DNA of 64,000 bases from Hydrotalea sp. (lineage in GTDB: Bacteria; Bacteroidota; Bacteroidia; Chitinophagales; Chitinophagaceae). Below, one piece after another: positions 34,225 through 35,954 of the stretch. Where the stretch lies: NCBI GenBank assembly GCA_027364735.1, contig DAHXOT010000023.1, forward strand, positions 62,001 to 126,000, in the 5' to 3' direction. Every line of letters begins with the position of its first letter. The stretch's first letter is position 1. The notes beneath the pieces are model-generated. The model was not told where the DNA came from, did no database searches, and was given only the letters and a program-made list of their open reading frames with translations. A program made the translations under genes and the position numbers.

Positions 34225-34239
34225 GTTAGCGGCAATTAT
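34225..34239 (+). repeat. Left terminal inverted repeat of the cassette
   Basis: GTTAGCGGCAATTAT, matching the reverse complement of the right end at 13 of 15 positions. GCTAAC at 34250-34255 and GAAC at 34259-34262 can also pair back with GTTAGC and the preceding GTTC. Confidence 0.65.
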
Positions 34240-34244
34240 TGGGG

Positions 34245-34270
34245 GCACTGCTAACTTTGAACGACAGTGC
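34245..34270 (+). other. Hairpin before the cassette gene
   Basis: GCACTG (34245-34250) pairs with CAGTGC (34265-34270) around a 14-nt loop, 4 bp before the ATG at 34275. It could occlude the start region or form a recombination structure together with the left repeat. Confidence 0.5.
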
Positions 34271-34274
34271 TAAA

Positions 34275-35543
34275 ATGGAACAGACAAAAGGAAATATGAC
34301 AGCTAATATTGAAAATATAATTAAGCAGTATAAATCGGACTCGGAATCGGTTTTCAATACATGGTTTATTAATAACGAAGACAGGTTAAAAGCGTTTCGT
34401 TCAATCAGGCGAGGCGTAATGCAAGTTGTGGACGACATCAAGAATGGAAAATTCGGAAACGACTTTAAAGGGACCTCGCTTGAATTTGTATTGACCTGCA
34501 TTACCGAACAGAAACAAGTTTTTGAAGGAGCTGCACATCCATTTTATTGGAAACCTAAATTGAGAATTCCCGATATCTATGAAAATGAAAAAAATAAAAT
34601 TGCTTTCGGACAATTTTTAGAAAACATATTAAATTCAACTACTGAAGATCAAATCATCAAAGAAATTATTCGTTTAGACGGCTATAAAATTAAAGGACTT
34701 GGTCCTGCGGTTGCAAGTATTCTTTATTTCATTCACCCTACAATTATTCCTCCTTTCAATACTGCAATCATCAATGGATATAATTATTTATTCAAGGACA
34801 AAAAGAAATTAGGTTCATGGAGTGAATATTTAAAAATTAGAGAAGTTTTAATTGATGTAAACAAACAATACAAAAAAGAATTCTCACTTGACCTTGGTGC
34901 TATTGCAGGACTAATGTTTGAAATAGGAACACAAAAATTATTACTTGGCAATGACGAATATTTATCCGAACAAGAACGAAGAAAACTGGAAACACTTATT
35001 GTAAAAAGGCAAAATGAAATTCAAGATGATAAGCAAGAAGAAAGTTTACATACTGAAATGCAATACCACTTATTGAAGATTGGAAATGCTTTAGGTTATG
35101 ATGTGATATGTGCACAAAACGATAAATCAAAATCCTATTGCAACGCTAACTTTTCTTTCCTCTGTCTTTCCGATTTTCCGGCAATGAACACAGACAAAGA
35201 CACAGCCAACACAATTAAGATGATTGACATACTTTGGTATCAGAAATCTACCAACAATATTATTGGAGCATTTGAAGTTGAGAAAAGCACAAGCATTTAT
35301 TCAGGTATCTTGCGATTGACAGACCTTGCATTTTCAATTGCAGACGGAGACAAAGTATTTTACATTATTATTCCTGACAGCCGAGAGAAGGATGTAAGAA
35401 TGCAGCTATCAAGGCCATCAATAAAAAGTATTAAAGTCCCAATCAATTATATTTTATTTTCCGACTTGCGACAGCATTGCGATGCGCTTTGTCTGTTTGG
35501 AGAAAGTCATCATATTATGCAAAAAATTGCAAAATCAGTTTAA
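34275..35543 (+). CDS. Putative PD-(D/E)XK-fold nuclease with a BamHI-like D...ExE motif
   Basis: 422-residue soluble protein starting at ATG 34275; the longer TTG frame would run into the left inverted repeat. The N-terminal 220 residues are mostly helical and contain GYKIKGLGPAVASILYFIHP, reminiscent of a helix-hairpin-helix DNA-binding segment. The C-terminal domain has HTEMQYHLLKIGNALGY, then D318 in MIDILWYQ and FEVEKS with E334 and E336. D-x15-E-x-E is the spacing style of BamHI (D94, E111, E113), where glutamate replaces the usual catalytic lysine; K337 follows. It is likely an endonuclease of restriction or defence type. No methyltransferase is beside it, so a classic restriction pair is not supported here. 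Codon use differs from neighbours. Confidence 0.6.
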   Translation: MEQTKGNMTANIENIIKQYKSDSESVFNTWFINNEDRLKAFRSIRRGVMQVVDDIKNGKFGNDFKGTSLEFVLTCITEQKQVFEGAAHPFYWKPKLRIPDIYENEKNKIAFGQFLENILNSTTEDQIIKEIIRLDGYKIKGLGPAVASILYFIHPTIIPPFNTAIINGYNYLFKDKKKLGSWSEYLKIREVLIDVNKQYKKEFSLDLGAIAGLMFEIGTQKLLLGNDEYLSEQERRKLETLIVKRQNEIQDDKQEESLHTEMQYHLLKIGNALGYDVICAQNDKSKSYCNANFSFLCLSDFPAMNTDKDTANTIKMIDILWYQKSTNNIIGAFEVEKSTSIYSGILRLTDLAFSIADGDKVFYIIIPDSREKDVRMQLSRPSIKSIKVPINYILFSDLRQHCDALCLFGESHHIMQKIAKSV

Positions 35544-35581
35544 CACGAAACGGTATGATAACAAAACGAACTTCTAACAAC

Positions 35582-35622
35582 CTGTTGCACAAACTTGATA
35601 CATTTGTGCTTCGGATGAACAG
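35582..35622 (+). other. Two-part hairpin after the cassette gene
   Basis: CTGTT+GCACAAA (35582-35593) pairs with TTTGTGC (35603-35609) and AACAG (35618-35622). An 8-nt bulge, TTCGGATG, lies on one side and a 9-nt loop at the tip. An imperfect hairpin with an asymmetric bulge is the general shape of attC-like single-strand recombination sites. It could alternatively end the transcript, but no T tract follows. Confidence 0.5.
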
Positions 35623-35623
35623 C

Positions 35624-35638
35624 ATAACTACCGCTAAC
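35624..35638 (-). repeat. Right terminal inverted repeat of the cassette
   Basis: ATAACTACCGCTAAC, inverted partner of the left end, 13 of 15 positions matching. AT-rich native sequence resumes immediately outside. Confidence 0.65.
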
Positions 35639-35954
35639 ATAAAATTAAACTTCATTATTATTTGGTATTCTATTGTTTATTGCAAGTTTTTATTATAGTT
35701 TATTTGTATTTTCAAAAATCTCTTCGCAACTTTACTATAAGTTTTATTGTAGAATCAATCTATATTTTTCTATTTTATTTATAGTGTAAATTAATAAAGC
35801 ATTTGCTGATTTTTAACCTTAGTCCAAGCGTTGATTAGTGATTAAGTGAGAAGGCCCTTTTCTAAGGGCTTTCTAGTTTTTTATTAAAATTTTATCAAAT
35901 AATATTTTGTTTACTACAACTATTCAACGAATTTTCCATTTTAAAATATAGGTT
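35639..35954. other. Intergenic region after the cassette
   Basis: 316 bp of very AT-rich DNA with no gene. It holds one hairpin-plus-T-tract terminator near 35850. The rest shows no recognisable structure; no clear promoter box was found before the lipoprotein ATG at 35955. Confidence 0.5.
35850..35882 (+). terminator. Rho-independent terminator, possibly of the interrupted permease/SRPBCC unit
   Basis: GCCCTT (35854-35859) pairs with AAGGGC (35864-35869) around TTCT. The stem extends by A-T pairs and one G-T wobble to about 10 bp and is followed by TAGTTTTTTATT. It lies 307 bp after the cassette gene but would lie only about 225 bp after the SRPBCC stop if the cassette were removed. Confidence 0.7.

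Follow-up and report, generated by a model that had tools for sequence, protein, structure and literature searches.

How does a single nuclease-type gene, framed by 15-bp inverted ends, come to stand between two host genes? The question is raised by a block in the 64,000-nucleotide stretch of Hydrotalea sp. DNA that we analyzed (the window). The initial annotation placed the block at 34225-35638, described its ends as inverted copies of each other, and saw in it a plausible member of a poorly described class of single-gene units mobilized in trans. Here, we examine its boundaries, the pairing of its ends, its relatives across the phylum, and the recombinase that accompanies those relatives.

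Boundaries and content of the insertion

When recomputed, the two ends agreed exactly with the initial annotation: they are inverted copies identical at 13 of 15 positions, and both mismatches are transitions. Other details of that description also held. The left end lies 13 bp past the stop codon of an SRPBCC gene, and one gene fills the interior, with a 422-aa reading frame from 34275 and its stop codon at 35541-35543. Its codon use is the most deviant among the 35 window genes of at least 200 aa (0.68, the next being 0.35), and the GC content is 33.8% in the unit versus 30.6 to 30.8% in the flanks. No transposase or integrase gene was found within the unit; since it has no recombinase of its own, it must move in trans. 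A whole-unit DNA search of its own genome (G000) returned a single copy.

The initial annotation had proposed looking for an orthologous empty locus, and we found one in a congener (G001, contig G001:C148). There, the neighboring genes lie on one contig, with flank identity of ~94 to 95%. Because the locus is empty in this one congener, from which all of the empty-site evidence comes, the element is an insertion. The empty site reads AACAGTTTG^TTATTATTTTGC, and the window reads AACAGTTCG^TTAGCGG ... CCGCTAACATAAAATTAAACTTC A TTATTATTTGG. The left breakpoint coincides with the left 15-bp end, where the crossover would have taken place at the G^TT of the head. The right breakpoint falls at 35653, 15 bp past the right end, so that the annotated left limit stands and the right limit has to be extended (Table 1). 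No target duplication had been annotated, and none is clear; the sole candidate is a 3-bp TTC present at both junctions.

Table 1. Features of the inserted unit, with positions numbered along the window
Feature	Positions	Strand	Evidence
Cassette head, R'-type end, GTTAGCGGCAATTAT	34225-34239	+	Left boundary relative to G001; head rule of ~50 other cassettes
Cargo gene, 415 aa from ATG 34296 (422 aa from ATG 34275)	34296-35543	+	Open reading frame; 15 full-length homologues; REase_II match; invariant residues
attC-derived segment between gene and tail: hairpin GCACAAA/TTTGTGC and loop motif TTTGTGCTTCGGATGAACA (35603-35621)	35572-35621	+	Motif; weak covariance-model match
Cassette tail, R''-type end, ATAACTACCGCTAAC	35624-35638	+	15-bp pairing with head on bottom strand, two G.T wobbles
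Remnant between tail and right insertion boundary, ATAAAATTAAACTTC	35639-35653	+	Right breakpoint relative to G001

Alignment with homologues indicates that the cargo gene probably starts at 34296. The protein has no match in Pfam or NCBIfam, and its family profile has none among solved structures; single-sequence structure prediction gave a mean pLDDT of 39, too low for a fold search. The PADLOC model REase_II, which describes a type II restriction enzyme, matches residues 256 to 387 (E = 2.4e-5). E254, D311, and the pattern F-E327-V-E329-K are invariant in nine aligned homologues, an arrangement compatible with a restriction-endonuclease-like active site. An upstream segment that these homologues also share, LKIKGLGPAVASILYF, looks like a helix-hairpin-helix DNA-binding motif. 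To judge from these sequence features, the cargo is probably a DNA-binding, restriction-endonuclease-like nuclease.

The 15 full-length homologues share 68 to 77% identity with the cargo, and those in other genomes sit outside cassettes, without such ends. The loci L047, L048, L057, and L058 are examples; in the first two, the homologue is directly followed by a gene for a small Cys/His-rich protein like those of Bacteroidota metal-resistance islands. A gene without the ends at the orthologous locus had been named in advance as evidence against a mobile unit. Homologues without the ends do exist, at other loci, and they only show that the gene spreads by additional routes as well.

Head and tail pairing in a family of cassettes

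The initial annotation had also made the recurrence of the 15-mer pair elsewhere a test of the unit. The exact 15-mer is rare: searches of the window's genome and 40 relatives gave mostly chance matches in coding DNA, and viral contigs gave nine chance matches in coding DNA and no cassettes. Since the 15-mer is specific to its cassette, absence of the identical sequence elsewhere is misleading as a refutation, and it is the pairing rule that proved common. One left-end match among the relatives led to an array on an 8.4-kb contig (G004:C20), where at least eight one-gene cassettes stand in a single orientation with repeats of 190 to 200 nt between them. Each cassette starts with GTT (once GTA) followed by a variable stretch, and each ends with the inverse of its own stretch. 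One cassette of this array (L079, 2758-3933) encodes a 391-aa protein beginning MVVNIFYSWQSDLPNSKNRGFIQ that resembles proteins with a TIR-type domain.

We excised 60 candidate cassettes between neighboring sites, 50 of which were distinct. These 50 were chosen by head/tail match at positions 5 to 9, which favors the match statistic and not the wobble polarity; at the variable positions 5 to 10, a head matched its own tail at 5.46 of 6 positions and other tails at 2.64 of 6, a value reached in 0 of 10,000 permutations. All 60 cassettes, taken without selection, gave 5.85 of 8 for own pairs versus 2.93 of 8 for crossed pairs. Thirty-six ungapped cassettes had a head/tail match of ~15 bp, and in 35 of them the head had A and the tail had G at position 11, a difference that becomes a G·T pair once the bottom strand folds. 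Transition mismatches were polarized in the same direction, with 36 forming bottom-strand wobbles and 1 a top-strand wobble (P = 5.5e-10). The end sequence therefore differs between cassettes, yet the head and tail of each cassette stay matched.

The ends of the window element follow this rule. The head and tail differ at position 9 (C/T) and at position 11 (A/G), and since both are bottom-strand wobbles, the two transitions are the signature of the cassette family. Counting these two G.T wobbles, the ends pair at 15 of 15 positions on the bottom strand, whereas the top strand pairs at 13 of 15. When the 15-nt remnant connects the tail to the head, the folded stem is 16 bp long on the bottom strand versus 8 bp on the top. 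We scanned the 64-kb window with a rule learned from the other cassettes (GTT, A/G at position 11, at most one further bottom-strand wobble, and a spacing of 0.3 to 3 kb) and recovered exactly one pair, at 34225 and 35624. Shuffled windows held 0.04 pairs each, with at least one pair in 5 of 120 shuffles. We hold with high confidence that the window element belongs to the family.

The attC-like sites of the family were also found independently of the array search. A BLAST search with the window's attC loop against 395 genomes of the phylum yielded two chance matches, one match in MetG coding sequence, and one attC-like site. Among 85,000 species genomes, the loop motif next to the right end of the window element (TTTGTGCTTCGKATGAACA) turned up at 20 loci. 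Seventeen of these were hairpin sites resembling attC, in Flavobacteriales, Hymenobacter, Pedobacter, Saprospiraceae, Stygiobacter, Thermochlorobacteriaceae, and others; the loop motif of the window, with T for G at one base, is the mark of the attC-like sites in these 17 database matches. A bottom-strand alignment of 16 sites gave a consensus hairpin of 27 pairs, 10 of them changed on both sides, with a G.U pair in 16 of 16. With the covariance model, 74 of 121 relatives proved to have such sites at E ≤ 0.001; in a sample of 296 genomes spanning the phylum, 98 had them at E ≤ 1e-6. Rfam matches included no attC-like family. They did include the DUF805b RNA, in two cassette leaders only, between the head and the start codon (L153, 72-104; L160, 13056-13088); cassettes may carry their own riboregulator, or the DUF805b RNA family may consist partly of cassette leaders.

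At the window element, the covariance model scored 15.1 bits at 35544-35659(-), with E = 0.086 in 82 kb and E = 2.9 genome-wide. The loop motif lies 5' of the tail, 2 bp before it, and not 3' as in the other cassettes. A complete attC is absent, with 15 nt between the tail and the junction versus a body of roughly 100 to 190 nt elsewhere. Because the tail is followed by only these 15 nt, we read the window attC as decayed or composite, and this copy as a decayed member of the family at best. A second solitary cassette stands elsewhere in the same genome (G000:C7, L145, 974-2274): it carries a hisC-like aminotransferase gene, has the ends GTTGGTGGCAATTTT and GTTGGTGGCAGTTTT under the same end rule, and has a 52-bit attC-like site.

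The family shares much with integron cassettes and their attC sites (such as VCR and class 1 cassettes, and CALIN-type attC sites, solitary or clustered, that have no integrase): one-gene units in one orientation, a hairpin site at the 3' side, R'/R'' complementarity, a G^TT boundary, bottom-strand folding, and an array beside a tyrosine recombinase. The window unit likewise has one gene on the + strand, with the tail and attC-like segment 3' of it. The R box of attC is ~7 bp long. The family instead has a 15-bp stem with a fixed wobble at position 11, an attC body of either 117 to 137 or about 190 to 200 nt, and conserved loop sequences of its own. In mechanism this is a known kind of element; its stem rule and its recombinase are unlike those described. 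The inverted ends are not the terminal repeats of a transposon-like unit but the R'- and R''-type head and tail of an integron-type cassette.

The recombinase beside the arrays

The arrays adjoin an IntI-related tyrosine recombinase of about 350 to 390 aa that lacks the IntI-specific insert. The best solved-structure match of one such protein (G027:C20) was IntI4 (2A3V; E = 3.8e-34), with the stretch holding the IntI-specific helix absent. The spacing from box I to HxLRH was 91 to 94 aa in 26 IntI-like proteins, as against 93 to 99 aa in Xer proteins and 134 aa in IntI4 (taken from a printed alignment), and these proteins therefore lack the I2 region. Against the NCBIfam model of IntI (TIGR02249) they scored 172 to 204 bits, below the cut-off of 265; their top NCBIfam scores, 190 to 213 bits, came from NF040815 (cut-off 220), one of the models of the XerC/XerD/XerA recombinases (NF040815, TIGR02224/5). 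No canonical IntI exceeded the TIGR02249 cut-off in the relatives. The catalytic core has the length of that of the Xer proteins. The IntI-like proteins differ from these in their cassette arrays, which XerC/D loci lack, and in an N-terminal region of ~80 to 100 aa ahead of the SAM-like domain, which is likewise extra relative to IntI. Residues of about 30 to 67 in this extension carry the motif W-S-x-S-x-K-x-W-Y (L163, L165, L168, and L149) and are weakly like DUF5710 (E of 0.002 to 0.08, below cut-off). The extension could replace the I2 helix.

An attC-like site of at least 20 bits lay within about 8 kb of 22 of 40 IntI-like loci and 0 of 25 XerC/D-type loci (P = 1.3e-6), a comparison biased by the inclusion of several loci from genomes already known to have sites and a few found via the site motif. 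In all 22 cases, the array reads away from the integrase; 17 integrases are codirectional with the array, a difference from IntI, and 5 are divergent. A 121-genome comparison free of the locus-choice bias gave sites in 42 of 51 genomes with an IntI-like protein versus 32 of 70 without a strong match (P = 6e-5). The first cassette head is 105 to 333 bp away from the integrase in most platforms examined, and several platforms share CGTATATTT a few base pairs before that head, a candidate attI. In one platform of the congener (G001:C124, L147, 2511-11932), type III restriction-modification-like genes (a 662-aa Mod-like and an 853-aa Res-like protein) and a gene for an 806-aa AAA-like protein have the IntI-like integrase on one side and an attC-like site on the other; the ends match, which suggests a single 8.1-kb cassette.

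The IntI-like protein could nevertheless be a passenger in a real cassette family moved by another enzyme, such as host XerC/XerD acting on the folded site. In the integron integrases known so far, the extrahelical attC bases are docked by the I2 helix, which is viewed as the step enabling single-strand recombination (PMC7790495), and that helix is missing here; sites also occur in the 32 genomes without a strong IntI-like match. Genomes of that sort fit CALIN-type remnants, however, and the co-occurrence of sites and integrase across genomes, like the placing of the arrays beside IntI-like genes and not Xer genes, always reading away from them, argues that a mover of this other kind is unlikely. 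We hold with moderate confidence that the IntI-like protein acts as the integrase of the family.

An integrase acting from the window's own genome was considered and rejected: G000, which is 99.9% complete, has no IntI-like integrase at E ≤ 1e-40. Since the enzyme is missing there, the data fit mobilization of the window cassette in trans, either within a relative or within an ancestor that possessed the enzyme. G001, the congener, has sites as well as the integrase.

Origin of the window element and meaning of the family

If the inverted pair were a chance one around a gene that arrived otherwise, for example by homologous or illegitimate recombination, the weak covariance-model score and the homologues at 68 to 77% identity outside cassettes, several of them beside metal-resistance-type genes, would be accounted for. 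We give this little credence, as the left end is itself the insertion boundary, the pair obeys a 15-bp and A/G rule expected by chance only 0.04 times per window, and an attC-type loop motif lies 2 bp ahead of the tail. A transposon- or MITE-like unit, whose 15-bp terminal repeats would be recognized by a transposase in trans, would explain the inverted ends, the single gene, and the missing internal recombinase, but it is very hard to credit given family ends that vary from cassette to cassette while staying matched (which a transposase on fixed repeats would not permit), mismatches polarized toward bottom-strand wobbles, inserted DNA extending 15 bp past the right repeat and not at all past the left, and the lack of a clear target duplication.

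The stretch 34225-35653 is thus very probably a solitary integron-type gene cassette with a probable nuclease cargo, inserted site-specifically at G^TT between two host genes, likely by the array-type IntI-related enzyme, and now bereft of its attC body. In such an event, the head and tail would adjoin in a free circular cassette, whose bottom strand would form a hairpin based on the 15-bp head/tail stem with its conserved G.T wobbles. A tyrosine recombinase supplied in trans, likely the IntI relative that lacks the IntI-specific insert and heads arrays in related genomes, would join this hairpin to a short target by site-specific recombination at the G^TT position between the host genes. The attC body would have been cut to 15 nt during or after insertion, stranding the cassette. 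Counting against a cassette are the missing normal attC body and the 15-bit score, the loop 5' of the tail, the lack of an integrase in G000, and the cargo homologues outside cassettes.

It is conceivable that the 15-nt remnant still recombines, because a Vibrio attC showed only minor effects when three bases took the place of its terminal structure (PMC2727003); in the window element, though, the L stem is gone as well. Standing alone at a G^TT position and away from any array, the window cassette resembles cassettes inserted at nonclassical attG sites of genomes (Loot et al. 2024, as cited in PMC12901181); it differs from them in its decayed attC. The initial annotation was right in seeing an inserted unit with no recombinase of its own; the class it called poorly described is well described in general, though not in this form or this phylum.

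Bacteroidota have been regarded as almost free of integrons. Earlier surveys picked intI genes by the IntI-specific domain (PMC2426708), and Bacteroidota are not among the taxa with taxon-specific attC models (PMC8352920). The IntegronFinder 2.0 study noted that previously only In0 elements were known in Bacteroidetes and added one complete integron, in Salinibacter ruber, with others in Chlorobi and Ignavibacteriae (PMC9024848). Yet a third or so of the genomes sampled here have sites, beside an integrase lacking the survey-defining domain. The full-text literature that we searched, with subscription journals outside its scope, contained no description of a system with the 15-bp stem rule and the IntI-like enzyme, which leaves priority unproven.

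The window element is one stranded cassette, and its value lies in having exposed the family. We lean, with some reserve, toward the view that Bacteroidota and their near relatives have an integron system of their own, occurring in roughly one in three of the species sampled, with a 15-bp stem bearing a fixed wobble and an integrase that recombines folded single-stranded sites without an I2 helix. If this is true, there is a second route, in origin or in execution, to the recombination of hairpins by integrases, and surveys requiring the IntI-specific domain missed the Bacteroidota system. Whether folded attC-type DNA is recombined by a recombinase without the I2 helix has become a testable question, and such a system would broaden the reach of integron-driven gene exchange to include a phylum that dominates in soils, waters, and guts.
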